A stretch of DNA of 35,421 nucleotides. Origin: Catenulispora sp. GTDB lineage: Bacteria; Actinomycetota; Actinomycetes; Streptomycetales; Catenulisporaceae. Shown one piece after another: positions 17,507 through 35,421 of the stretch. Position 1 is the first letter of the stretch. Each line of letters opens with the position of its first letter. The position numbers and the translations under genes were made by a program. The notes under the pieces were generated by a model, which worked only from the letters and a program-made list of their open reading frames with translations, was not told the DNA's origin and did not search any database. The stretch covers positions 1-35,421 of the forward strand of contig JABFWL010000658.1 in NCBI GenBank assembly GCA_013362315.1, given 5' to 3'.

Positions 17507-18793
17507 TCAGGGGGCCAGCGTGAACCGGCCGAGCATCGCGCTGGCGGCGGCCACCGCACGGCGGTAGGCGTTCGGCATCAGGTGCGCGTACATGTCGAGT
17601 GTAACCTTCGGCGTGCTGTGGCCGAGGTAGTCGGCCAGCTCGTTGATGGCCACGCCCTCGGCCAGCATGGCGCTGGCGTAGTAGTGCCGCAGCGCGTGCA
17701 TCCCGTCCCGGGGGTTGTTCGAGTACTTCCGCCGGCCGCGGTCGTCGATCACCGGCGGCGGGGCGAGCTTGGCGTGTGACAGGGCGGGCCGCCACACCAA
17801 CTCGTTGTACAGCCGCGCCCGCATGTGGGTCAGCCCGTACCGGGGCCCGGTCCACACGAAGATCAGATTATGTGTGACCGGGTCGCCGTCGGTCTTCTCC
17901 CACGGCAGGGTGATGGGGTGTGCCCCGTGCTTGTCGATATGCTCACGCAGCATCCGGTAGGTCTCCGGGGGCATCGGGGCCTGGCGCGACTTGTCGTTCT
18001 TGGGCAGCGCGAACACGAAATCGCCCGAGTCGAACTTCTTGATCTGCCGCCTGATGTACAGGAACTCCTCGTCGAAGTCGCCCTCGGCCAGCGCGAAGAT
18101 CTCGCCCTGCCGCGCCCCACACGACACGCCGATGACGGGGACCGGCAGGAACACCCCGTCGCGGTAAGTGCGGTGGAAGTCCAGAACTCCCTGGAGCTGC
18201 TCGTCCTGCCAGATGGTGATCTCGGTGGCGGCCCGCTTGGGCATCTTCACGCTCTTCGCCCGCGCCGGGTTCTTCTTGATCGCCCCGTCGTCGACGGCGA
18301 TGTCCAGGGAGTTGCGCAGCAGGTGCAGGCCGCGGCCCACGGTGGTGGCGCCATGGGTGCCGGAAAACTCCTCCATCCAGTTGAGCACGTCGGTGACGGT
18401 GATGTTCTTCACCGGCCACTTCTCGAAGGTCGGGTTCAGGTGCAGCCGGATGGTCTGCTCGTAGATCTCGTAGGAGGCGGGATCCTTGTCCTTGGTCGTG
18501 GCCAGGTGCAGCTTCAGGTAGGGACCCAGTGGTTTGTCGCCTGCCTTGGGGTCCATGTAGTCCCCGCGGGCGGCGTCGGTGTCCATGGCCTTGGCGTGGG
18601 TCTCAGCGTCGACCTTGATAGCGAACGCGCGGGTGCGTTCCTTGCCGTTGGGGGCGATCCAGCCGGCCAGCCAGCGCTTGCCCTTGCCCCAGCGCTCGTT
18701 CTTCTCCCGGACCGGCTGGCCCTTTTTGTTGCGGACGATCTCGCCGTCGTCGTCGCGGACGACGTCGGTCCACATGTCTTTGACGAATGCCAA
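17507..18793 (-). CDS. Tyrosine site-specific integrase
   Basis: The 428-residue tyrosine recombinase would integrate and, with the excisionase, excise the element. The N-terminal arm-binding region (about 1-95) is followed by a core-binding SAM-like domain (LGPYLKLHLATT... about 96-175) and the catalytic domain. Catalytic residues are Arg228 (GARQGEI), His366-x-x-Arg369 (HALRH), His392 (LGHST) and the nucleophile Tyr402 (LDMYAHL). The set is complete, so the enzyme looks active. The start is TTG at 18793 (MAFVKDMW); an in-frame ATG lies six codons later. It sits 57 bp downstream of the excisionase gene. A serine integrase is excluded. Confidence 0.94.
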   Translation of the reverse strand: MAFVKDMWTDVVRDDDGEIVRNKKGQPVREKNERWGKGKRWLAGWIAPNGKERTRAFAIKVDAETHAKAMDTDAARGDYMDPKAGDKPLGPYLKLHLATTKDKDPASYEIYEQTIRLHLNPTFEKWPVKNITVTDVLNWMEEFSGTHGATTVGRGLHLLRNSLDIAVDDGAIKKNPARAKSVKMPKRAATEITIWQDEQLQGVLDFHRTYRDGVFLPVPVIGVSCGARQGEIFALAEGDFDEEFLYIRRQIKKFDSGDFVFALPKNDKSRQAPMPPETYRMLREHIDKHGAHPITLPWEKTDGDPVTHNLIFVWTGPRYGLTHMRARLYNELVWRPALSHAKLAPPPVIDDRGRRKYSNNPRDGMHALRHYYASAMLAEGVAINELADYLGHSTPKVTLDMYAHLMPNAYRRAVAAASAMLGRFTLAP

Positions 18794-20733: not shown

Positions 20734-21219
20734 CTACTGAGTGGGTGGCGCCGTCAGCGCAGTGGCGGTGACGTGCAGGGCCATCTGCCGGGCGGGCCGG
20801 GTTGGGCCGAGCATGAAGGTAACGGCGAGCAGGTGCCGGTGGTCGTCGTCGGGCAGCACGTGCGCGTCTATCAGGCCGTCAATCGCGGCCTTTGCCGACG
20901 GGCCCCAGTTGTGCGGGTCCAGCCGCCTGCGGTTGTGCGGGTAGAGCACGACGGTGATCCACGCCTGATACAGGGGCGGGACCTTCCCCGCGCGAGCCAG
21001 CGCGGCCGCGGCGACGCGTATCGCGCCGGTGATGGCACGCTGCCGGGTCCAGTGCGGGCGCTCGTTGGCGTTGAGCAGCACCAGCCCGGCCGGCAGCTCC
21101 ACGGTGTAGCAGGCATGCCCGACCGCGCGGCACGGCGGGTCGGGCGTCGTGCCGACCATGCCCGGCGGGACCGGGCAGCCCCCGGGGATTGCTCCGCTCA
21201 CCGGTTCCCCGGTCGTCAC
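20734..21219 (-). CDS. RusA-like Holliday junction resolvase
   Basis: The 161-residue product resembles RusA-type endodeoxyribonucleases, which cut Holliday junctions during phage recombination. The core reads [17 protein letters not shown], then [39 protein letters not shown]. The acidic residues expected to bind Mg2+ are present (Asp101, Asp114, Asp118, Asp124-126). The open frame extends much further upstream, but that part overlaps the antirepressor gene. The GTG at 21219 shares a GTGA overlap with the antirepressor stop and is preferred; GTG 21201 or ATG 21159 are possible. Together with SSB and the Sak4-like ATPase it suggests a complete recombination set. Confidence 0.8.
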
Positions 21220-22067
21220 CGGGTTCCGGAGGGGTTCCCGGCACCAGCAAGCGGGGTCAGCTGGCGGGCCAAGCGGCGCCGGACCAGCTCGATGCCGGAG
21301 GGCAGCACGAACAGCGTGAAGTGCGAGCAGTCCCGCCCCTGGTGCGTGATGACGGTCTCGGCCGGCTTGAAGTGGTGGGCGACAGCGGCGTACGCGTCGT
21401 ACTGGGTCACCCCGCACGGCGCGTGCCGGACGTAGATGAGGTGCTCGGCGATGAGGAAGCCCCGCAGCCAGTGCTCCTTGTGGCCCAGCAGATGCGCCAC
21501 CTCCCGGATCAGGCGCTCGCCGTTGCCGGCGGCCAGGTAGGCGTCGTGGGCTTCGGCTTTCGGTGCTAGCTCGGCGACGGCGGCCTCGGCTAGGGCCGCG
21601 CGCTGGTCGGCGGCGATCCGGTCGAGCTCGGCCTCCCGTGCCAGGTCGATCAGCTCCAGCCGCGTGAGCTCGCGGCGGGGCTGGGCGGTCTCGGCCTCGT
21701 GGGTACGGACCGCGAAGTAGGTCTGTGCGGCAGCGACTTCCGGTTTGCGCGGGTCGCCGTTCATCGCGATGAGGTAGCAGGCGTATCGGGTCAGGGTGTA
21801 GTCGATGCGCGCAGCACGGCCAGGTGTCCAGTTCGTCCCGACTTCGCGGCGCCGGGAAGCGTGCTGGCCTGCATCGACGCCGGAGTTGCCGATCGCGGCG
21901 ATGGCACGTTCGATGGCTTCGGCGAAGCGTTCCCAGCGCTGGTATCCCAGCAGCGGCATCAGCTCGCGGGCCGACCAGCATTCGGTGCCGTCATCGTGGT
22001 GGCGGCGTATCGCGTCGAAGGGCGAGCTGGTACTCGCGGCCGGTATGTGATCAGGCAGGTTGGTCAT
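21216..22067 (-). CDS. KilAC-domain phage antirepressor-like protein
   Basis: The 283-residue protein has two parts. The N-terminal 110 or so residues ([41 protein letters not shown]) match the DinD/Bro-type domain seen in phage antirepressors. A helical linker (about 125-165) leads to a C-terminal KilAC-like domain ([29 protein letters not shown]... [14 protein letters not shown]). Proteins of this kind counteract lysogenic repressors or regulate early genes. The start has AGGA eight bases upstream. Its end overlaps the RusA-like gene by 4 bp, so the two are translationally coupled. Which repressor it opposes is unknown. Confidence 0.82.
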
Positions 22068-24066: not shown

Positions 24067-24588
24067 TTAGAACGGGGCCTGCTCGCTGCTGCCCCAGCCG
24101 GTGGCCGAAGCCGCCCAGGGGTCGCCCTGCTGCCCGCTCCGGGCCTGCTGGTACGCCTGCTGTCCGGACTGGGTCGGGCCGCCTCCGTTGCCCCAGCCGC
24201 CGCCGTTGGCGCCTGCCTTCTCGCGGTCGGCTTTGACGACCTTGGCGGTGGCGTACTTCAGCGACGGGCCGATCTCCTCGACCTCCAGCTCCACGACCGT
24301 GCGCTTCTCGCCTTCCTTCGTCTCGTACGACCGCTGGCGCAGCCGTCCGGAGACGATCACCCGCATGCCGCGGGTCAGTGACTCGGCGACGTTCTCGGCG
24401 GCCTGACGCCAGATCGAGCAGCGAAGGAATAGCGCGTCGCCGTCCTTCCACTCGTTGGTCTTCGCATCCATCACCCGCGGGGTGGAGGCGACGGTGAAGT
24501 TCGCCACCGCCGCGCCACTGGGGGTGAAGCGCAGCTCGGGGTCGTCGGTGAGGTTGCCGACGACGGTGATGACGGTCTCGCCCGCCAT
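24067..24588 (-). CDS. ssb: Single-stranded DNA-binding protein
   Basis: The 173-residue SSB protects single-stranded DNA during element replication or recombination. The OB-fold is complete: [93 protein letters not shown] Gly/Gln-rich linker leads to an acidic-poor tip GSSEQAPF; the canonical DDEPPF tip that recruits partners is replaced, keeping only the terminal PF. AAGGAG lies nine bases before ATG 24588, which decides this start over the in-frame ATG at 24597. It is an element copy, not the chromosomal gene, judging from its neighbours. Confidence 0.92.
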
Positions 24589-24668
24589 GTCATTCATCTC
24601 CTTGCTGCCGGGCTCATGCCCGGCCTTGAGGTGGGTGCGGGCAGGGCCGGGAATGCGTTTGCCGGCTG

Positions 24669-25460
24669 CTAGGGCATGACGCCGAGGTCGCGGCGGATGC
24701 TGGACACGGTCAGCAGGTGGGCCAGGTTCCACCGGTTCTTCCGGGCGCCGGGAGGGCCGACGGTGTCGATGACCGGTATGAAGGCCCCGGCGGCCTCCGC
24801 GCGCCGGATTCGGGCGCGCGCGGCCAGCTCGGAGATGCCGAGCAGCAGACCCAATTGCTGGGCGGTGACCAGCCGGTTGCTGGTCGCCGCCTCGCGGATG
24901 AATTTGCCGGAGTCAGAGCCGGCACGCGCGAGGGCGCAGACTGGGTGCTGGCACTTCCATCCAGCACCGCCGTCGAAGACGTGGGCGGGAATGAGGGTCC
25001 TGGCCGGGATCCGGTCCCACGGGGCTTCCTGGGTGTGCCCTTCGGGGCAGCGCTGCGGCTCGTACCCTTCCAGCCGCGCGAACAGCAGCCCCAGTAGGGC
25101 ACGGTGCCGCAGGAAGGTGACGGTCGTGTGGTCGGCGACCTCGGCGGGTATCTGCGTGACCGTCTTCTCCAGGAACGCCGCCCCGGATTTTCGATTCGGG
25201 AAGTCAGCGCGCTGCGGTACACCGTCCGTCGTTCCCAACGCCCGCTTGTGGATCGCAAGCTCCTGCTGCAAGTCGCGATCGAACTCGTCCAAGGCCGAGA
25301 TCAGCGGGATGGAGATCGGCTCGCTGCTGCCCAGCTTCCCGCCGGAGCTCCCGCCTTCGTCGCCTCCGCGCTGCTTCGCCCGGCCCAGGGCCACTCGGGG
25401 GGCAAGCTCGTCCGCGATCCTCGCGGCCTGCCCGATGAAGCGGTACTCCTCGCCCGCCAT
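24669..25460 (-). CDS. Hypothetical protein with C-terminal helix-turn-helix
   Basis: An unrecognised 263-residue protein. The middle contains [20 protein letters not shown], with Cys and His residues that may bind a metal. The C-terminal part ([60 protein letters not shown]) reads as a winged helix-turn-helix, so DNA binding is plausible. A segment near residue 25-45 is charged and low in complexity. ATG 25460 is chosen because GGGGAGGGG precedes it; the frame extends to 25553 without support. It is followed by ssb on the same strand, 80 bp away. Confidence 0.65.
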
Positions 25461-25923: not shown

Positions 25924-26304
25924 TCAGCCGTTGCGCAACAGCACCGCGCTGGCATCGAACAAGTAGTTGCGGGCCTCCTCGCTGATCGCGCCGTGCGCGA
26001 CAGCGTTGTCGACCATCGACATGTGGACGCTCAAGGCGGCGTCCCAGCCCCGGTTGAACGCCGGCTCGCTGCCAGCGACCGCCTCGATCATCTCCACTAG
26101 CGCCTCAGCGTGGGCACGTTGGTCGTCCCCGTGCAGGCCGGTGGCGGCGTAGGCGAGCACGGCGGCCATCGCCCCAAGGAACCCGGCGTGCTCGGCTTCC
26201 TGGGTCAGGTCGGCGCCAGCAGCTGAGGCGTTGCGTCGGAGCATTTCGGCGATTCGCTCCCGGTTCTGCTCCGGCGTCACGTCGCCGGCGGTGCTCTCGG
26301 TCAT
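25924..26304 (-). CDS. Hypothetical helical protein
   Basis: A 126-residue unrecognised soluble protein, mostly helical (NRERIAEMLRRNASAAGADLTQEAEHAGFLGAMAAVLAYAATGLHGDDQRAHAEALVEMIEAVAGSEPAFNRGWDAALSVHMSMVDNAVAHGAISEEARNYLFDASAVLLRNG). No cysteines or membrane spans. GGGAG lies a few bases before the ATG, supporting the start. It stands alone between two non-coding gaps, so it is likely a separate small transcription unit with a terminator after it. Confidence 0.7.
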   Translation of the reverse strand: MTESTAGDVTPEQNRERIAEMLRRNASAAGADLTQEAEHAGFLGAMAAVLAYAATGLHGDDQRAHAEALVEMIEAVAGSEPAFNRGWDAALSVHMSMVDNAVAHGAISEEARNYLFDASAVLLRNG

Positions 26305-26549
26305 CGTCGCTCCCTCAAAGCTGTTCCCCCGCGTGATGCAAGGCGCGTTCTACTCGGCGGGTGGCCGCCGATCCCCACGCGCCACATTATTCGTCGGGTC
26401 AGACAATAGCTTGTCGCTGAACGAGTCCGTGCAGGCCAGATGCATGTTTGCCAAGGCTTTAAGCAGCAGTCTGTTGTCAACATTGTCACGACTGCTGGCG
26501 ATAGTAGCGCGCTTGACGCATCCGCCGACAGGTACCTTTGGCGGTGATA
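26305..26549. other. Intergenic gap, less GC-rich
   Basis: About 245 bp between two leftward genes. It contains a minus-strand TTGACA near 26476-26481 and a short dyad GACAA...TTGTC near 26402, but no well-spaced -10. The frames crossing it lack the GC-rich third positions of the true genes. It probably holds the promoter of the 126-residue gene. Confidence 0.4.
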
Positions 26550-27275
26550 CTACGCGTCGTTGCTGTGCGTTTCGCGCGCTGCGACCGGTTCGAACTTGGC
26601 GGTCGTCTTGGTGCGGATCTTAGGGGTGCGCACCGCCCGCTGGAACAGGCCGGCACCGCGAAGGTCCCCGGCAACGGCCAGGCGGCGCGCGAGCGGCGCG
26701 AGTTTCCTGACCGACCAGATGCCGCTGCCGACCCCGATGGCGGCCCTGGCAGTGGTCGCGCCGTCGCGAACCCCGGCCTCGTAGGCGTCACCGTAGCCGG
26801 CGGCCAGGAACCCCGGGGTTCCCTCCGGCGTCCGATACTCCGAGCGCAGGGCCGCAGCGATCAAGGCGATCACCGCGTCGTCGTCGAACACCTTGGTGAC
26901 GGTGTGCCCCCGGGAAAGCTTGTAGCGGGTGCCGTCGGCGCCGTCGACGTACACGGCCTTGCCCTCAACCAGTCCGGTGGTGGCATCGGCGCCGAGGGCA
27001 TCCAGTTCGGCGTCCAGCTCCTCCCGGGCGGCGTTGGCAGCGTCGGTAAGCGCCTTGGCACCGTGATTCAGCATCTCGGCGGCGGCGATCATACGCGGTG
27101 TCACCGCCGCCGGGTCCTGCTCGCGCAGCGCGTTGGCGTGCTCGGTGACGGCGAAGGCCAGAGCGTCCTCGGTCCGGGCGTCCGGATCGTTCGACGCGGC
27201 CAACAGCCGGTGCAGCAGAGCGGTGACGGCTGTCCGGGGGTCGACCGGGACGGCATGGGTCAGGTCATCAGGCAT
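26550..27275 (-). CDS. Hypothetical protein
   Basis: An unrecognised 241-residue soluble protein. The N-terminal half is helical (TAVTALLHRLLAASNDPDARTEDALAFAVTEHANALREQDPAAVTPRMIAAAEMLNHGAKALTDAANAAREELDAELDALGADA). A middle part has strands (GKAVYVDGADGTRYKLSRGHTVTKVFDDDAVIALIAAALRSEYRT) and a Gly/Ala-rich segment follows. The tail is basic. The ATG at 27275 lies inside the end of the upstream gene; the 16-bp overlap suggests coupled translation. It is the last gene of a three-gene cluster (27882 to 26550). Confidence 0.7.
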   Translation of the reverse strand: MPDDLTHAVPVDPRTAVTALLHRLLAASNDPDARTEDALAFAVTEHANALREQDPAAVTPRMIAAAEMLNHGAKALTDAANAAREELDAELDALGADATTGLVEGKAVYVDGADGTRYKLSRGHTVTKVFDDDAVIALIAAALRSEYRTPEGTPGFLAAGYGDAYEAGVRDGATTARAAIGVGSGIWSVRKLAPLARRLAVAGDLRGAGLFQRAVRTPKIRTKTTAKFEPVAARETHSNDA

Positions 27276-27697
27276 ACCGCCTCCGACGCGTTCGGCACCA
27301 CCGGCTCGACGGGCTGGGCTGCGGGGTCCAGATGCGCCAGCCACGCCGTCGCGAGCAGCGCGTTGCGCCGTGCAGCAATGGCCGTGGCGGGGATGACCTG
27401 ATCGAAGCTCCAGGCGCAGCCGGTGCAGGCCAGGTCGTGGGACAGGATCAGCACCGTGCCGACGAGCTCGACCTTGACCCCACCGGGCATCAAAGGGCTG
27501 TGCGCGCCCAGATGCTCGGCGTGGTCCGGGCACAGGTCGATGTCGATCCCCGGACCCTCCGAGCCTGCCGAAGGCTGGCCGCCGGCCACCGTCAGGCGCC
27601 GCCAGGCGGCCGGGATGTCGTCGGGGACGACGAACGTCTGCACGCCGCACCTGGTGACATCGCAGCTGAACCGCAGCGCGGCCGTGGCGACGCTCAC
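27260..27697 (-). CDS. Hypothetical Cys-rich protein
   Basis: The 145-residue protein is not recognised. It contains Cys/His groups FSCDVTRCGVQTF, DLCPDHAEHLG and LACTGCAWSFDQVIPATAIAARRNALLATAWLAHLD. The last is a CxxCxW knuckle followed by a helix, suggesting a zinc-binding unit, as in several phage-like proteins. The start is GTG at 27697 with GGGAGGGAT upstream; it shares the GTGA overlap with the stop of the 62-residue gene. It overlaps the next gene by 16 bp. Confidence 0.7.
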   Translation of the reverse strand: MSVATAALRFSCDVTRCGVQTFVVPDDIPAAWRRLTVAGGQPSAGSEGPGIDIDLCPDHAEHLGAHSPLMPGGVKVELVGTVLILSHDLACTGCAWSFDQVIPATAIAARRNALLATAWLAHLDPAAQPVEPVVPNASEAVCLMT

Positions 27698-27882
27698 CGG
27701 GATCCCTCCCACGTCACGGCCGTGGCGAACAGCGTCAGGAACGGCGAGCCCTCTGCATCGGCCAGCCCGAACAAAACTCCGCCGGGTCTGCGATGCCGGC
27801 CGATGTAGCCGTTGGGCGCCTCGGCCACGACCGGCGGGACGGAGCGCCGGGACTGGTAGGGAACCACCGCAATCTGGGGCAT
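27694..27882 (-). CDS. Hypothetical 62-residue protein
   Basis: A short protein beginning MPQIAVVPYQSRRSVPPVVAEAPNGYIGRHRRPGGVLFGLADAEGSPFLTLFATAVTWEGSR. It has no recognised domain. Support for it is positional: its stop overlaps the GTG start of the next gene by 4 bp, and it begins right after the leader of the cluster. The start has only a weak GA-rich ribosome site. It is the first of three coupled genes. Confidence 0.55.
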   Translation of the reverse strand: MPQIAVVPYQSRRSVPPVVAEAPNGYIGRHRRPGGVLFGLADAEGSPFLTLFATAVTWEGSR

Positions 27883-27925
27883 GGGGGTCTCGATTCAAAT
27901 TGGACAGTTGAACAGGGGAACGGCG

Positions 27926-27960
27926 CGACGCCCGGACCACGTGGTGTGATCCGGGCGTCG
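27926..27960 (-). terminator. Hairpin after the Sak4-like ATPase gene
   Basis: A perfect 11-bp stem (27926-27936 with 27950-27960) lies 16 bp downstream of the ATPase stop and before the 62-residue gene. It has no T run. Confidence 0.75.
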
Positions 27961-27975
27961 CGGCCAGGGAAGTTC

Positions 27976-29583
27976 TCAGGCGGCCTGCGGTTCGGACGCC
28001 TCGGTGCGGGTGGCGACGGCCTGGTACACGGCCTTGCACTGCTCCAGCAGCTCGGTCGCCTCGGCCTGCGGCAGCTTGCCGGAGGCGGCGTGCTGGTGGA
28101 TCAGGGCATGGATCCGGCCGACGTCCTGAAGGCTGTTCCGCTTGGATGCGGCGCGGGAGAGTATCGCCGTCAGCGCGCCGGCCGCCGGGTTCACCGGCGG
28201 CGGAGCACCCAGCTCGGCGCGGCGCTCGGCCACAGCGATGGCCAGGTCGACGAACAGGGCGTTGTTGATCGCGGTGGCGTGGAAGTCCCGGATGAACCGG
28301 GCCTCGACACGGTCCACGGCCTCCAGGTGTTTCGCGTCGGCCAGCGACTTGCCGAAGTCTTCCACCCCAGGCCGGGAACGCGGCGGCTCCACCGCGACCT
28401 GTTCCAGCGCCGGGATCACCAGCAACGCCGATGGTTCCGGCCCGTTCTCTACCTGCTCGGCGCCCTCGGTCGGCTCGCTGGCCTCATCGGCCTGCTCCAG
28501 TGGCTCGGCCTCGCCGGATCCCGGCGCTCGCAGGGCGTTGATGACGGTCTGGGCCTGCTGCGGGTCCAGGTCACGAGGTCCGGAGACGGCGGTACCCAGG
28601 ATTCCCGACACCAGCTGAAGGCGTGAGGGCCCATCGGCCGGGCCGACACGGTCCAGCAGGTCCAGAATCTCGCGTACCTGCTCGGCGCTGGCGCGCGGGC
28701 CGCTGGGTTCGGTCGGGCCGTGGCCGCCCTGGCTGGTGCTCTCGGCTGCGGTCAGAGCGAAGGCGTCCGCCGGGTCCGGTCTCGGCGCGACGTAGATGCG
28801 GGGCTCGGTGGCGCCGGCGGCGTCCAGGCCGAGGCGCTGCATCAGATCGTGGGTGGTGAAGTCGGGGATCAGCCGCTTCTCCCCGCGTGGGATCTGAAGG
28901 CGCAGCGAGCGCACCCCGGAGACCTCGAAGGTGCGGTAGTCCGGCATGGTGATCACGACGTCCACCTCGAACGGCAAGTTTTTCTCCGTCCGGATCTTCC
29001 AGTCCTTGTCCTTGGTGGGGTTGCCGTTGGCGTCCACGATGGTCGTGTGCTCCATGCGGGCGATCAGGAGTACCGGGCCGTCGTGCTGGCGTAGCACGTC
29101 GATGAAGTCGCCCCAGCGCTTCTTGGCCACGTTCCACAGGTCCATGGTGATCGTGGCTTCGCTGTCGGGATCCTTGCGGCGCCGGTTGGCGATGGCCTGG
29201 ATCTCGGCGGTGAGCATCTCCCACAGCTGGGTGACGTTGTCCACAACGATGGCGTTCGGCCGGTCGTCGTACCGCAGCTGCTTGGTCGCCGCCCAAGCGG
29301 CGTACATGATGCCCTTGTAGCTGCCGTCGTGGTCGACGATCTCGTAGTGCGCGCCGGGCACCTCGCCGTAGTGGTTGGCGTCGCCCTCGCCGATCTCGAT
29401 CCAGAACGTGCGGCCGACCATGTCCGAGCCGGAGAACTCGGCGGCGGTGTAGGACTTGCCGCACTTGTGGACGCCGGCCAGCAGCACCAGCGGCCACGGC
29501 GGTTTGCCGGTGGGAAGACGGGTCTTCAGGAACGGGATCGCGGGGTTGTTCGCCGGCGGACCCGGCGGTGCGGCAACGGACAT
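27976..29583 (-). CDS. Sak4-like P-loop ATPase (AAA_24 type) with long C-terminal extension
   Basis: The 535-residue protein has an N-terminal RecA-like P-loop domain. The Walker A motif is GVHKCGKS (37-44) and Walker B is AIVVD (111-115), with ARMEHTTIVDANGNPTKDKDWKIRTEKNLPFEVDVVITM resembling the AAA_24/Sak4 group of phage recombination ATPases. These assist single-strand annealing and work with SSB. Typical members are about 230-300 residues. Here residues from about 250 to 535 form an extension: a helical unit, a Glu/Pro-rich linker and a second helical unit (HTLEAVDRVEARFIRDFH). The extension is unrecognised. AGGAAGG precedes ATG 29583. A consensus promoter and hairpin leader lie upstream. 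The alternative is a RecA/RadA-like protein. Confidence 0.75.
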   Translation of the reverse strand: MSVAAPPGPPANNPAIPFLKTRLPTGKPPWPLVLLAGVHKCGKSYTAAEFSGSDMVGRTFWIEIGEGDANHYGEVPGAHYEIVDHDGSYKGIMYAAWAATKQLRYDDRPNAIVVDNVTQLWEMLTAEIQAIANRRRKDPDSEATITMDLWNVAKKRWGDFIDVLRQHDGPVLLIARMEHTTIVDANGNPTKDKDWKIRTEKNLPFEVDVVITMPDYRTFEVSGVRSLRLQIPRGEKRLIPDFTTHDLMQRLGLDAAGATEPRIYVAPRPDPADAFALTAAESTSQGGHGPTEPSGPRASAEQVREILDLLDRVGPADGPSRLQLVSGILGTAVSGPRDLDPQQAQTVINALRAPGSGEAEPLEQADEASEPTEGAEQVENGPEPSALLVIPALEQVAVEPPRSRPGVEDFGKSLADAKHLEAVDRVEARFIRDFHATAINNALFVDLAIAVAERRAELGAPPPVNPAAGALTAILSRAASKRNSLQDVGRIHALIHQHAASGKLPQAEATELLEQCKAVYQAVATRTEASEPQAA

Positions 29584-29655
29584 GGGGTCCTTCCTGAAGG
29601 GGAACGCGAACGGCCCGCGCGCCGGAGGCGCCAACAGGCCGCAGGAGGCAGCATG

Positions 29656-29688
29656 AAGCCCCCGGATCCTCAGGGAATCCGGGGGCTT
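29656..29688 (-). promoter_or_regulatory. Leader hairpin B before the Sak4-like gene
   Basis: A perfect 12-bp stem pairs 29656-29667 with 29677-29688. On the minus strand it begins AAGCCCCCGGAT and ends ATCCGGGGGCTT. It lies in the 5' leader of the Sak4-like gene, about 70 bp before the start. No T run follows, so termination is uncertain. It is related to hairpin A (29729-29766). Confidence 0.65.
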
Positions 29689-29728
29689 AGAAGGTGAACA
29701 GACGGGTGCGCGGGCTCCGAACGCACCA

Positions 29729-29766
29729 GAGCCCCCCGGGGATCCTGGCGGACACCTCGGGGGCTC
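29729..29766 (-). promoter_or_regulatory. Leader hairpin A before the Sak4-like gene
   Basis: GAGCCCCC (29729-29736) pairs with GGGGGCTC (29759-29766). The 22-nt loop contains CGGGGATCC. On the minus strand it comes first after the predicted transcription start. It shares the AGCCCCC...GGATCC...GGGGGCT layout with hairpin B, so the two look like a duplicated RNA element. Confidence 0.6.
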
Positions 29767-29829
29767 GATGGAGGAAGAAGAAGCGGGTCAGGCGGCCAGC
29801 GGCTACACCTCTACCAACTAACGAAAGAG

Positions 29830-29858
29830 ACCCTACGATCATCAGAGCTGAAGGTCAA
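29830..29858 (-). promoter_or_regulatory. Promoter of the Sak4-like operon
   Basis: On the minus strand TTGACC (29858-29853) is followed by exactly 17 bp and TAGGGT (29835-29830), an exact TAGRRT match. It is the best vegetative-type promoter in the element. Transcription should begin near 29823, giving a leader of about 240 nt that contains hairpins A and B before the start at 29583. Confidence 0.75.
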
Positions 29859-29892
29859 CGCTTTGGCGGAAATTTCGCCGCTGTGACCGTGA

Positions 29893-30912
29893 TCACGCTA
29901 CGCCGGGCAGTGGCTCAAGATCTGCTTGCGCTGTGCCAGCGTTCTCGGCATCGATCGCTGCCGCTTCGGCCACCAGTGCCGGAGCCAGCTGATTCAACAG
30001 GCGAGTTGCCCGGCCGGTGCCGATCCCGAAGGTCCGCACCAACCAGTTCGCTGAGAACGGCCCCTCCGGCCGCAGCCTCTGAGCCTCCAGCATGATCTCC
30101 TGATCCGAGGGCCGGTCGGTCTCCTCGCTCGGTGACCCCACCGGCGACGCCGTGAGCTCACCGGCGTCCTCACCGTCTCTGCCTGGTGAGGCCGGCGGTG
30201 ATATTGGGAGCGGCGCCGTGGCCTCACCGGTGAGTTGCCCAGGATCCGCATTCACCGCGGCGCCGGCCGAGACCTCACCGATCGGGTCGGCCACCGCGAC
30301 TTCGTCAGGAGGCAGCTCACCGCTCGGGTCACCGGCGGGGGCCTGAAGCTCACCGCCAGGACTTGCCGGTGAGGCCGGGCTCACCGGCTCGGCTGCCCTC
30401 CCATTCGCCGGTGAGGCTTGGCCAGGAACGTCGAGCTGTTCTTGGCGGAGCCGGTGGGCACGCGATTGCAGGGCTGCGGTGCACATCAGGGTCGCGCCAT
30501 CGATGGCCAACGGCCCGAACCACACAGTGAGCCTGTCATCGGGGAAGAAGTGCCGGTACAGCCCGGACAGGTGATGGTAGGAGGCGTTCGCGACCGGGGC
30601 GGCGACCAGGACCATCGATACGCACCGCACCGCGGTCCACAGCGGGCCTTGTGACCAGCCTTTCCAGAACATCACCTCGGTGGTGATGAACAGCAGGATC
30701 GGCCAGGCTGCCGACAGCAGCAACGCCCCGATGGGTGGGCTGTAGTGCCCCGGATCCCAGGGCTTGCTGACCGGCCAGGATGGCGGGGCGTTGCGCGGTG
30801 GGATGAAGGCGTAGGCCAGGTTCGCGTACAGGGAATACCCGGCGCCGACGAGCAGACCGGCGTAGACCCAGAACAGCGTGTGTGAGGACGGCGGGTCGTC
30901 GAGGGACGACAT
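29893..30912 (-). CDS. DUF2637-like membrane protein with repeat-encoded tail (Spd-like)
   Basis: The 339-residue protein has four N-terminal membrane helices (about 12-36, 60-82, 92-112, 128-148). The last pair carries NASYHHLSGLYRHFFPDDRLTVWFGPLAIDGATLMCTAAL, similar to the DUF2637 proteins of Streptomyces conjugative elements, where some are called Spd (spread) proteins. A long low-complexity region (about 160-260) rich in Pro, Ala, Gly and the pairs Gly-Glu and Ser-Pro follows, then a short helical domain at the C-terminus (DQEIMLEAQRLRPEGPFSANWLVRTFGIGTGRATRLLNQLAPAL), possibly a winged helix that binds DNA. The low-complexity region coincides with GGTGAG/CTCACC copies. AGAGGAGGA lies about 13 bp before the ATG. 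Confidence 0.72.
   Translation of the reverse strand: MSSLDDPPSSHTLFWVYAGLLVGAGYSLYANLAYAFIPPRNAPPSWPVSKPWDPGHYSPPIGALLLSAAWPILLFITTEVMFWKGWSQGPLWTAVRCVSMVLVAAPVANASYHHLSGLYRHFFPDDRLTVWFGPLAIDGATLMCTAALQSRAHRLRQEQLDVPGQASPANGRAAEPVSPASPASPGGELQAPAGDPSGELPPDEVAVADPIGEVSAGAAVNADPGQLTGEATAPLPISPPASPGRDGEDAGELTASPVGSPSEETDRPSDQEIMLEAQRLRPEGPFSANWLVRTFGIGTGRATRLLNQLAPALVAEAAAIDAENAGTAQADLEPLPGVA
30157..30415. repeat. GGTGAG/CTCACC copies inside the DUF2637-like gene
   Basis: Eleven hexamers fall in 260 bp of coding sequence. CTCACC starts at 30157, 30169, 30223, 30274, 30316, 30349 and 30380. GGTGAG starts at 30185, 30229, 30368 and 30410. The pair at 30223-30234 forms the palindrome CTCACCGGTGAG. 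On the coding strand the copies encode Gly-Glu or Ala-Ser-Pro, which creates the low-complexity protein tail. Confidence 0.85.
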
Positions 30913-30956
30913 GGGCAGCCGGATCCTCCTCTCGGGACGAAGGAACAGGAGAAGGC

Positions 30957-31162
30957 GGTGAGGTCACCGGTGAGCCACATCGGCATCCCGGACCTGACTG
31001 GTGAGCCCTTCAACGAGGCTTCCTGGTGAGATGGAGCGCGTCGGCGGCCTCACCGGTGAGCGGCCCGCGGCGGCACGGTCCCGCAGGCGGCTGGCGGTGG
31101 GACAACGCAGGAGTCCAGCCCTTACCGGTGAGCTCTGCATACGGCGCCGTGTCACCGGTGAG
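30957..31162. repeat. Iteron-like array of GGTGAG in non-coding DNA
   Basis: Seven GGTGAG copies, all in the same direction, start at 30957, 30969, 31000, 31025, 31055, 31127 and 31157. Spacings are 12, 31, 25, 30, 72 and 30 bp. Four are preceded by ACC, giving ACCGGTGAG, and the one at 31049-31060 is the full palindrome CTCACCGGTGAG. The array fills the gap between the DUF2637-like gene and the tandem-HTH gene. Array-like direct repeats of this kind mark plasmid origins (iterons), partition sites or TraB recognition sites. Which one applies is not known. Confidence 0.75.
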
Positions 31163-31192
31163 GCTGGGCGGGGCGATGACGCCGAGGGATCC

Positions 31193-31870
31193 CTACGGCA
31201 GAGGGCTGGCTTCCATTGACTCGACGGATGCGGTGAGCACCCGAAGGCCCAGGCTGGCGAGCGCCGCGTTGAGGATCTCCGGATTCTCTAGAAGCATCTG
31301 CGCGTTCCGCTTCGCGGCGTCGGTGCTCGCAGAGGTCACCGCCGAATCCAAACGGAGCATCGTCACGACCCGGTTGACTGTGGGGGCGTGGTCACCACCG
31401 TTTCGTTGACGCCATCGTGCCTCGGCAGCCGTATCCACCGGGTACCCACGGGTGCCCGCGTCTGCTACGAGTTCTGCGATGTCCCATGCGCGCTTTGACC
31501 CGACCCTGAAGCACGGGAGGGGTGCGTTGCCATGCGTGGCTCGTCCTTGAAACTGCTTCTCGTCGATGGCCAGAATCTCGGCCGCTTCGGCGACACCGAC
31601 AGGAATGGTCCCGCTTGGAACGGATCGGGCTTTCCTGAGCGCCGCCACCTTGGGCTGCAAGATCGTATATCCGGCTGCTTCAAGGCGAGGGATGATCGAG
31701 TCGAGCCTCCAGATTGCACGACCGTTGAGCAGCGCATCGCCCTCGGTCAGCAATGCGCCTGGCATGCCGATCTGGTCTGAGAGTTGGGAAAACCGAGCCC
31801 TGGTCTTCCCCGTGATGTCCGCGAGGTCCACGGGGCCGACGAACACGACGCTGTTGGTGTCGGTGTCCAC
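31193..31870 (-). CDS. Putative DNA-binding protein with two AlpA/MerR-like HTH units
   Basis: The 225-residue protein has two stretches that both resemble AlpA/MerR-type DNA-binding units. The first (about residues 10-68) reads VGPVDLADITGKTRARFSQLSDQIGMP...GRAIWRLDSIIPRLEAAGY. The second (about 88-140) reads IPVGVAEAAEILAIDEKQFQGRATHGNAPLPCFRVGSKRAWDIAELVADAG. A helical C-terminal part follows and probably dimerises. The start is GTG at 31870 because AGGAGG lies six bases upstream; an in-frame ATG at 31936 has none. The gene lies next to the iteron-like array, so it may bind those repeats, as Rep, ParB-type or repressor proteins do. The two-unit reading is my interpretation and was not tested against profiles. 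Confidence 0.6.
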   Translation of the reverse strand: MDTDTNSVVFVGPVDLADITGKTRARFSQLSDQIGMPGALLTEGDALLNGRAIWRLDSIIPRLEAAGYTILQPKVAALRKARSVPSGTIPVGVAEAAEILAIDEKQFQGRATHGNAPLPCFRVGSKRAWDIAELVADAGTRGYPVDTAAEARWRQRNGGDHAPTVNRVVTMLRLDSAVTSASTDAAKRNAQMLLENPEILNAALASLGLRVLTASVESMEASPLP

Positions 31871-31972
31871 GTTCGGCCTCCTGGTCCGGGTGACGCCGAC
31901 GGTTGGGTGTGCGGCGTGTTGGAACCATGTTGCCACGCCCGGACCAGCCCGCCGATCCTGCTCCCGTCCCTG

Positions 31973-33193
31973 CTACGCCGCGACGTTTCGCCAGTTCGTG
32001 CCGAAGACCTGTCCGGTGACTTTCTCCCAGACGGCTACGGTGTCGGCGCGCTGGTCGTCGGTGTCCGCGCTGTTGCGCAGGACGTCGACAGCGTAGGTCC
32101 AGGCGTTGGTCTCGGCGCGCGCCAGGCTCTCCTCGAATCCGACCGCGCAGGCATCCGTTGCTGCTGCGGCGTGGTGTTCACCGTGGGTGTCGGCGGTTTC
32201 GGCCAGGTCGGTGAGCAGCAGCGCGATGGTGGCGGCCTGGACGGCGGCGGCGTTGATGCCGGCGATGCGTCGCCGTGCCAGCTCGGCCTGTTCGTCGTCG
32301 GGCATGGTGGTGGCGCGGGTGTGAATGAACTGCTGGGCGTGGCGGACCGAGGCCAGGGTCTGCTCGCATTGCGCGCGCCGCTTGCCGCAGGCCAGGGCCA
32401 CCGGGCTGGGCGGTTCCGTGTCCTGCTGGCACGCGTTGTCGGTGGTGGTGATGGCGGTGATGACCGCTCGGGTCAGGGCGGCGGCGGCGAACAGGTCCAG
32501 GTGAATACGGGCCGGGCCGATGAGGTCGGCGATCTCGTCCTCGGCCTGTTCGGCCCGGTCCAGCGCATCCTGCGCTTCCCGGGGCAGGGCTTCCGGGCCG
32601 GCGGTCTGGGCCGGGCTGGGGGCATGGTCGTTCCATTGGGCGAGTGCCCGGCCGAGGTGCCAGACCGGCCCGTCGGGGTCGGACGCGGCGTTCTGGGCGA
32701 TGGCGCGCGCGGTGACCATGGCGCCGTCGGTCAGGGCTGGTCCGGTCAGGGCCAGCAGCGGGAGCCGGCCACGCCGGGGTCTGGCCACGGCGGTGAGCGG
32801 GCTGCGTCCCGGTACCGGCCGGGTTCCCAGCAGCACGGCGGTGGCCATCAGGCGCCGCACCCGTACCAGCGTGTCGGCGACTCGTTCGGCGCTGGTGAGG
32901 TCGGGGTTGATGAGCTCGGTGACGGGGGCGGGCCCGGCGCGCAGCAGCTGGCTGTCGCGGTCGAACTCGACGCAGATCCACACCGTGCGGTCGGCGTGCC
33001 TCAGCGTCGTGGTCTCGATGCTGGGGCGGTCGGCCAGGTCGGCGAAGGCGCCGTTCAGGGCGGCGTCGTCGATGAGGGTCTCGATGGCGGTGGCCAGTGC
33101 GGGACCGCGGGTCATGACGGTGCCGGCGGTGTCCGGCAGTCCAGCCTTGACGGCGAGCCGGACGGCGAGAGCGGTGAGGTCGTCGTGATTCAC
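31973..33193 (-). CDS. Hypothetical large helical protein
   Basis: An unrecognised 406-residue protein rich in Ala, Asp and Glu, largely helical. The N-terminal part is VNHDDLTALAVRLAVKAGLPDTAGTVMTRGPALATAIETLIDDAALNGAFADLADRP. Later helices include REAQDALDRAEQAEDEIADLIGPARIHLDLFAAAALTRAVITAITTTDNACQQD. Cysteines in LACGKRRAQCEQTLASVRH may pair or bind metal. No membrane spans or nucleotide-binding loops are visible. The start is GTG at 33193, overlapping the upstream stop by 4 bp. It belongs to the coupled run 35421 to 31973. Confidence 0.65.
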   Translation of the reverse strand: MNHDDLTALAVRLAVKAGLPDTAGTVMTRGPALATAIETLIDDAALNGAFADLADRPSIETTTLRHADRTVWICVEFDRDSQLLRAGPAPVTELINPDLTSAERVADTLVRVRRLMATAVLLGTRPVPGRSPLTAVARPRRGRLPLLALTGPALTDGAMVTARAIAQNAASDPDGPVWHLGRALAQWNDHAPSPAQTAGPEALPREAQDALDRAEQAEDEIADLIGPARIHLDLFAAAALTRAVITAITTTDNACQQDTEPPSPVALACGKRRAQCEQTLASVRHAQQFIHTRATTMPDDEQAELARRRIAGINAAAVQAATIALLLTDLAETADTHGEHHAAAATDACAVGFEESLARAETNAWTYAVDVLRNSADTDDQRADTVAVWEKVTGQVFGTNWRNVAA

Positions 33194-33942
33194 GGGCGTC
33201 CCCCGTCCCGGTGTGCGGTGTACGCGATGTCGGTGAAGGCGGTATCGGTGTTCTTGACCTGTCCGGGGTCGATGCCGTGCAGCCCGAAGTATTCGGCCAG
33301 CACCCCGGGGGTGACCGGGGTGCCCGGGTCCCACAGGCCGGAGTCGTCCAGCATGGCCAGAGCCAGCGCGCCGCGGCCGGTGGAAGTCTCAGTGAAGTCG
33401 TAGCTGACGGCGCGATCGAACGAACTCGGGGCCTGCGGCAGCCCGGCCCGGTATTCGGCGGCCTGGGTTTCGGTGGCGGGCGTCGCGGCGTGAATCCAGG
33501 GGTCCTCGACGATCTGGGTGTCCACAGTGGTGGCGCGTCCGGTCGCGGTGACGGTCTGGATCCAGTGGTTCATGCTGCGCTCGTGGACGTTGCCTCGTAC
33601 CCGCCAGTGCACATCGGCCGACGACGTGAACGGGTCGACCTCGCCCCCGGTGCCGGCCTGGAGGGCCCGGTGCAGTTCGGCGGCGGTGGCCAACACCTGG
33701 CAGCGGCGCTGAACGGCGGCCGTCCACTCCACCACGAACACCGCCTCGGGATCCGGGGCGAGCGGGGGGATCGCGGCGTGGATGCGGGCGATGGTCGCCG
33801 CTCCTTCGGGCAGCTGCGGGTCGGCCCAGCCGTCCGTGTGGGTGCGCAGGTATTCGGCCGGGTCGTCGTGGTCGTCGGGGACCTCGACGATGAGTTCCCG
33901 GATGCGGGGGACGTTCTCTTCGATGCGGATCTCGTACTTCAA
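33190..33942 (-). CDS. Hypothetical protein
   Basis: A 250-residue unrecognised soluble protein beginning (TTG) MKYEIRIEENVPRIRELIVEVPDDHDDPAEYLRTHTDGWADPQ. A beta-rich start is followed by AVFVVEWTAAVQRRCQVLATAAELHRALQAGTGGEV and a C-terminal EYRAGLPQAPSSFDRAVSYDFTETSTGRGALALAMLDDSGLWDPGTPVTPGVLAEYFGLHGIDPGQVKNTDTAFTDIAY. The TTG start at 33942 has AAGGA four bases upstream. It is coupled to the next gene by a GTGA overlap and lies 39 bp after the upstream gene. Confidence 0.65.
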   Translation of the reverse strand: MKYEIRIEENVPRIRELIVEVPDDHDDPAEYLRTHTDGWADPQLPEGAATIARIHAAIPPLAPDPEAVFVVEWTAAVQRRCQVLATAAELHRALQAGTGGEVDPFTSSADVHWRVRGNVHERSMNHWIQTVTATGRATTVDTQIVEDPWIHAATPATETQAAEYRAGLPQAPSSFDRAVSYDFTETSTGRGALALAMLDDSGLWDPGTPVTPGVLAEYFGLHGIDPGQVKNTDTAFTDIAYTAHRDGGRP

Positions 33943-35390: not shown

Positions 35391-35421
35391 GGGCGCACCG
35401 CCATAGCCTGCGCGCTGCGTC
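35387..35421 (-). CDS. C-terminal end of a gene cut by the right edge
   Basis: A frame open to the window edge ends in RSAQAMAVRP and a TGA that overlaps the next ATG by 4 bp. It has the same coupling pattern as its neighbours, which suggests it is the end of another gene of the same run. Too short to identify. Confidence 0.4.
   Translation of the reverse strand, partial: RSAQAMAVRP

Follow-up and report, generated by a model that had tools for sequence, protein, structure and literature searches.

The gamma domain of FtsK/SpoIIIE reads the 8-bp KOPS motif. On the Streptomyces plasmid pIJ101, palindromic 12-bp sites (sps) lie inside the gene of their own DNA-binding protein, SpdA2, and loss is reported to have affected segregational stability and not transfer (PMC4170104). 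The O protein of phage lambda has four iterons, which are near-perfect inverted repeats of 19 bp and precede an A+T-rich region of 40 bp (PMC5043065). In prophage CGP3 of C. glutamicum, AlpA and its 24 alpS repeats link the phage DNA to a cell structure and to the membrane and aid replication (PMC4446434). Finally, p16.7 of phi29 is a phage membrane protein that recruits phage DNA to the membrane (PMC4974454). Below we compare these systems with a repeat array in a Catenulispora element, located in a stretch of 35,421 nucleotides (contig JABFWL010000658.1, analysed as a whole and called the window). The features of the window that are referred to in the text are:

17507-18793, minus strand: tyrosine integrase, at the left edge of the prophage and beside chromosome-like genes
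21216-22067, minus strand: prophage antirepressor with Bro-N and KilAC domains
24067-24732, minus strand: prophage single-strand binding protein, SSB
27976-29634, minus strand: AAA_24/Sak4-like ATPase, the syntenic gene downstream of the membrane-protein gene, with a C-terminal part common to the family
29893-30912, minus strand: gene of a predicted 339-aa membrane protein with N-terminal membrane domain, linker and C-terminal HTH; family homologs match DUF2637 weakly
29923-30126, minus strand: predicted C-terminal three-helix HTH domain, weakly FtsK-gamma-like (prediction, profile and Foldseek matches)
30118-30462, minus strand: low-complexity linker between membrane domain and HTH, which holds the coding array (sequence composition)
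30157-30415, both strands: array copies within the linker-coding segment, 11 of GGTGAG/CTCACC in more than one frame (word count and synonymous shuffles)
30466-30876, minus strand: predicted membrane domain, most hydrophobic in the segments of residues 64-82, 90-108 and 130-148
30957-31162, unstranded: array sites in the non-coding gap that lies upstream of the membrane-protein gene, namely six palindromic sites like CTCACCGGTGAG with 0-3 mismatches and a half-site at 30957
31193-31870, minus strand: upstream gene of a protein with two tandem MerR/BldC/excisionase-like winged HTH domains (fold matches), the rival candidate binder
31232-31237, plus strand: 20th GGTGAG copy, set apart from the others in the 3'-terminal part of the upstream gene

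The array and its unit

The words GGTGAG and CTCACC occur 41 times in the window (shuffles: mean 27.8, maximum 40). Nineteen of these copies lie within 30157-31162 and 22 in the other 34 kb, where the words are sparse at about one per 1.6 kb. The initial annotation had estimated around 18 copies in this 1 kb, with seven same-strand copies in the 280-bp gap, three of their six spacings near 30 bp, and eleven copies in the gene. The counts bear this out: the gap contains seven copies on the plus strand, spaced by 12, 31, 25, 30, 72 and 30 bp, together with one on the minus strand that is half of a palindrome, and the eleven copies in the gene encode Gly-Glu and Ser-Pro. The gap lies upstream of the membrane-protein gene, which runs on the minus strand. 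With the outlying copy included, 12 of the 20 array copies are on the plus strand and 8 on the minus strand, and a polar, KOPS-like orientation could be rejected for the window on this basis.

GGTGAG had originally been taken as the repeat unit. The hexamer is indeed enriched, but the palindrome CTCACCGGTGAG together with its half-sites describes the unit better, and the strongest single unit is CCGGTGAG. Near-complete palindromes are mostly found in the gap (centred at 30968.5, 30999.5, 31024.5, 31054.5, 31126.5 and 31156.5) and half-sites mostly in the coding part. There are 11 copies of CCGGTGAG in around 1.1 kb versus 2 in the remaining window, which is around 80-fold above the rate in the host genome (0.13 expected, based on 978 copies in a 7.97-Mb draft of 770 contigs). 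In the 8-Mb genome the full CTCACCGGTGAG palindrome occurs just five times, and the array accounts for two of these; a host-wide dispersed repeat was therefore rejected. Close pairs of the palindrome were recovered in 11 of 392 related genomes, and a dense array in none of these.

The array is a DNA-level signal that has been selected as DNA, because its numbers exceed those in synonymous shuffles, it uses both strands and several frames, and it also fills the non-coding gap. Within the gene CGGTGAG/CTCACCG was observed 10 times versus 2.2 expected, and none of 5000 synonymous-codon shuffles, in which codons are permuted within the gene and protein and codon usage are preserved, reached 10; the enrichment thus survives the shuffled-codon count that had been proposed as a check. 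In the gap the eight copies compare with 0.32 in dinucleotide shuffles, of which 0 of 2000 reached eight. Since both strands are used, one and the same word encodes Gly-Glu at some positions and Ser-Pro at others. The linker is low-complexity and GC-rich, which would fit an array produced by peptide composition and codon bias, devoid of a function in the DNA. This explanation is hardly credible considering the shuffles, the non-coding copies, the use of both strands and several reading frames and the fact that the spacing of the sites is phased across frames, and a peptide-level origin was rejected.

The phasing was evaluated on the pooled distances d between adjacent sites, for which the mean of cos(2 pi d/10.5) was 0.70 (n=44) versus 0.01 in the null (sd 0.11; 0 of 20000 as high), probabilities that are optimistic because the relatives are not entirely independent samples. 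The top period in a scan of 6-25 bp was 10.5 bp, equal to one turn of the DNA. Phasing persisted in the distances that are not multiples of 3 (0.63, P=6e-4), and since these are free of codon or heptad rhythm, neither of the two explains it. Within the window alone the phasing was weak (0.45, 151 of 20000; gap only, P=0.07). Helical phasing implies that bound proteins would align on one face of the DNA.

The array-bearing gene, its element and its relatives

According to the initial annotation the repeats dictate the tail of the encoded protein. They correspond to an internal linker instead, and the HTH domain comes after it. Insertion of the protein in the membrane is predicted on basis of its hydropathy and a distant similarity to DUF2637. 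The earlier label 'DUF2637-like' holds in part: 3 of the 4 members of family set A1 match the domain weakly (best E=0.0064), and the window protein itself misses the Pfam model (PF10935), having no match at E<=1 and no score that reaches the gathering score. The C-terminal HTH weakly resembles the FtsK gamma domain (PF09397), a likeness that is weak in all three methods used and below every formal cut-off. More explicitly, the profile match of the window protein scored 13.5 bits (E=0.059; gathering score 30.6 bits), that of a Streptomyces homolog, L023, which also matches DUF2637, scored 17.4 bits (E=0.0036), and a PDB profile search gave E=0.096. A Foldseek search with the HTH returned 2ve8/2ve9 among its matches with a probability of up to 0.85 but E>1, and VIA-align found no fold match above background, with the gamma fold at Z 4.1 tied with unrelated HTH folds.

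The left 17 kb of the window has chromosome-like codon statistics, and from the integrase (17507-18793) rightwards follow the KilAC antirepressor, the SSB and the Sak4-like ATPase. Longer relatives of the element contain a terminase large subunit, a portal and a DNA polymerase sliding clamp; in the relative in genome G008 the terminase large subunit is located around 26 kb from the array. Given that terminase, portal, sliding clamp, SSB, KilAC antirepressor and integrase all occur in the family, the Catenulispora element is a prophage and, as far as the scanned genes show, not a conjugative element. The combination of integrase, terminase and portal expected of a temperate tailed phage is present in the family as a whole, with the integrase in the window and terminase and portal in the syntenic relatives; the latter two were not seen in the window, whose contig cuts this prophage copy off at 35421. 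A clt-type site at which a TraB/FtsK pump would act in conjugal transfer, as had been proposed for the array, is not supported for this element. The phage structural genes in the element family speak against it, and a scan of part of the genes of the window, whose contig is cut, and of the more complete G008 and G002 relatives revealed no gene of the FtsK/TraB type. A comparable CCTCACC array does adjoin an FtsK/TraB-type gene in IMGVR_UViG_2932604667_000002, and yet we consider a transfer site most improbable.

Two further observations concern the region downstream of the membrane-protein gene. A perfect 12-bp inverted repeat (AAGCCCCCGGAT ... ATCCGGGGGCTT) is present at 29656-29688, which we do not call a terminator because a T run is lacking. 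The recombination genes (window 27976-29634; L012 11682-13073; L014 8069-9610) have a common C-terminal part and differing N-terminal parts, AAA_24/Sak4-like in the window and, judged by eye, Rad52- and RecT-like in the relatives, which looks like module swapping.

The gene order of 25924-33334 recurs in one IMG/VR contig and in three elements found in C. pinistramenti and C. pinisilvae. Relatives of the proteins were found neither in PLSDB plasmids, nor in INPHARED phages, nor in most IMG/VR contigs, with one IMG/VR relative as the exception. In four relatives (L012, L013, L014 and L027) the gene order is kept and an array is present in matching places, composed of a different palindrome, CCACCGGTGG and not CTCACCGGTGAG. 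These sites occur in the linker-coding segment of all four and, except in L027, also at the gene start, and they occupy more than one reading frame. L012 contains 5 copies of CACCGGTG versus 0.4 in synonymous shuffles, L013 9 copies of CCACCGGTGG versus 0.7 and L027 10 versus 0.4; in each case 0 of 5000 shuffles reached the observed count. The array of L014 is sparse. The initial annotation had named loss of the repeats in close relatives as an outcome that would speak against a site. The exact hexamer is indeed lost in them, but the array is kept with another palindrome, and the suspected cis-acting site spanning coding and non-coding DNA thus corresponds to a real array whose position is conserved in relatives.

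Candidate binders and roles of the array

The best reading of the array, in our opinion, is membrane anchoring by the product of the gene that carries it, and we rank this above an iteron origin and above a partition site. As a whole, the reading that the array comprises phased sites for that membrane-tethered protein, with a role in membrane anchoring or positioning and perhaps in autoregulation, is plausible though still tentative. We infer both the identity of the binder and the anchoring function. The N-terminal helices would seat the protein in the membrane, and the flexible linker would extend to the C-terminal HTH, which may recognise half-sites of CCGGTGAG that are combined into CTCACCGGTGAG palindromes. 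With numerous copies attached to a single face of the DNA, the phage genome, once excised or during its replication, could then be held at the membrane by this segment, which would act in positioning, in partition or as the anchor of a replication factory. Occupation of the gap upstream of the gene might regulate the gene's own expression as well. Anchoring, partition, organisation of replication and autoregulation are not separable on the present evidence.

The main competing candidate for the binder, and a serious one, is the neighbouring protein encoded at 31193-31870, which could bind the sites in the role of repressor or of partition adaptor and leave the membrane protein as a mere neighbour or partner. 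It has two tandem winged HTH domains that are closest to BldC, excisionases and MerR proteins, it is encoded immediately upstream of the array in 5 of the 5 elements, and it would be analogous to AlpA of prophage CGP3, which binds 24 repeats of the alpAC promoter (PMC4446434). The comparison between motif and protein points the other way. The neighbour comes in two diverged types (33-36% identical) that go with one common motif, and the window's version, 44% identical to type A, goes with the other motif. The HTH domains of the membrane proteins, on the other hand, are 55-81% identical among the CCACCGGTGG elements and 22-32% identical to that of the window. The change of motif therefore appears to track the membrane HTH protein better than its neighbour, which is suggestive, in a comparison of five elements of which one has the window's motif. 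Furthermore, the winged-helix protein was not seen encoded beside the comparable arrays of other elements (L146, L168 and the pSV2-type plasmids; see below), where the shared neighbour is a membrane protein of the Spd/DUF2637 type. Considering these points, we regard binding by the winged-helix protein as doubtful.

Anchoring by the membrane protein also has to be weighed against a lambda-type replication origin with iterons in or near the gene of their own initiator. Iterons inside an initiator gene are known for lambda O (PMC5043065), phased palindromic repeats would be compatible with iterons, and the array is situated among genes for replication and recombination (SSB, Sak4-like ATPase, sliding clamp). 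The gap, however, has no AT-rich segment (62-84% GC in 50-bp steps), the membrane protein is unlike known initiators, and a helicase loader or primase was not identified, which makes an origin distinctly unlikely. A packaging (pac/cos) site for a small terminase-like protein is highly unlikely: the fold matches of the neighbour do include, at low significance, viral packaging-motor proteins, among them lambda gpNu1 with its DNA-binding domain, but BldC and excisionase structures score higher, the array overlaps the membrane-protein gene and, as described above, the terminase large subunit of the G008 relative is far away.

Comparable arrays and comparison with known systems

Of the 392 genomes of the order that were searched, 389 encode membrane proteins of the DUF2637/Spd kind, and different genes of this type bear arrays with different words. 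In IMGVR_UViG_2932604667_000002 the gene after a TraB/FtsK-type gene encodes a membrane protein whose linker is rich in proline. Around 30 CTCACC/GGTGAG words, mostly on one strand, were observed there (L146, 10300-11207) in the linker-coding DNA and behind the membrane-protein gene beside the TraB/FtsK-type gene. Homology of the membrane protein of L146/IMGVR_UViG_2932604667_000002 to the window family was not detected and L146 is therefore counted as an analogue only. A weaker array of CGGTGC/GCACCG is present in an Spd-like gene of Streptomyces (L168, 1244-1710; 19 versus 8.6 in shuffles, a modest excess), the HTH of which (LGIGTGRATRVMDAA) resembles that of the window. The spacings in L146 and L168 phase weakly (0.25 and 0.28).

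On linear plasmids of Streptomyces such as pSV2, DUF2637 genes have an array of CCGAAACG in the upstream gap and inside the gene, which was phased in both plasmids tested; 187 records match by DNA and the array was checked in seven loci. In L042 (1115-1432), L192 (6031-6349) and L193 (6031-6348), which come from such plasmids and relatives, the CCGAAACG arrays cover the upstream gap and the N-terminal coding region with spacings of 95-96, 31, 21-22 and 21, and inversely oriented copies occur in the 3' coiled-coil part. The DUF2637 gene L029 (Catenulispora G003) is enriched in CGACAA (13 versus 3.7) and GACAAC (10 versus 2.3), which could be either Asn-Asp peptide repeats or another array. No convincing array was found in the Streptomyces HTH homologs L023 and L024 (CCCTGCCG, 4-5 copies), whose top hexamers have shuffle z values of 2.7 (a rough value, as the frame of L023 was shifted by a partial codon) and 4.4, respectively, the median for 53 other DUF2637 loci being 3.1, and most of the other DUF2637 loci surveyed contained nothing comparable to the array.

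The arrays could belong to a general system of actinobacterial phages and plasmids, in which membrane-anchored HTH proteins of the Spd/DUF2637 type have a phased array of binding sites in their own linker-coding DNA and promoter gap, a possibility that we put forward with considerable reserve. If so, the system would amount to a centromere or anchor tethered to the membrane, with a protein and a site that co-evolve and a motif specific for each element (CTCACCGGTGAG, CCACCGGTGG, CCTCACC, CGGTGC, CCGAAACG). DUF2637 proteins are widespread and yet scarcely named in the literature searched, and the phased, DNA-selected array within the gene leads to the hypothesis that DUF2637/Spd proteins are sequence-specific membrane tethers for mobile DNA. 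The rule that a binding site may lie inside the gene of its own binder, as for lambda O and SpdA2, would then extend to membrane-tethered proteins. The switch of motif between close relatives provides natural material for swap tests.

Among the described systems SpdA2/sps has in common with the window that palindromic repeats are located within the gene of a protein with a (predicted) HTH, on an actinobacterial mobile element, the window's binder being the one we infer. In the available part of the account (PMC4170104), sps comprises one to three sites of CGTCACGTGACG, unlike the around 20 sites of the window, whose palindrome is CTCACCGGTGAG and not CGTCACGTGACG; SpdA2 is small and plasmid-borne with an N-terminal DNA-binding region, whereas the window protein begins with a hydrophobic domain; and an analysis of helical phase is absent from that part, whereas the window family is phased. 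The proteins of Streptomyces plasmids that are of the DUF2637/Spd type likewise combine a membrane domain with a C-terminal HTH, but they reside on plasmids or conjugative elements with an unrelated motif, and the window protein misses the DUF2637 model. FtsK/SpoIIIE gamma with KOPS resembles the locus, by weak matches, in having a small HTH fold on a membrane protein; KOPS are dispersed polar 8-mers, whereas the array in the window is palindromic and phased and the membrane protein has no ATPase motor.

The phage systems show a similar mixture. Like the window, ori-lambda has phage repeats inside a coding region, which in lambda are bound by the gene's own product (PMC5043065), but O is not a membrane protein and the gap in the window is devoid of an AT-rich stretch. 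AlpA/alpS shares the prophage setting and the many short repeats beside the gene of a DNA-binding protein; the alpS repeats, unlike those of the window, are in the promoter region, have the motif TTAAnnG, and are bound by an adaptor that attaches to an actin-like filament and not to the membrane directly (PMC4446434). The p16.7 protein of phi29 recruits displaced single strands and terminal protein, and an embedded array of sequence-specific sites is not described in the accessible portion of the source (PMC4974454). The array in the window is not explained by any described system that we found and may represent a variant of the systems in which binding sites are embedded in the gene of their own binder.
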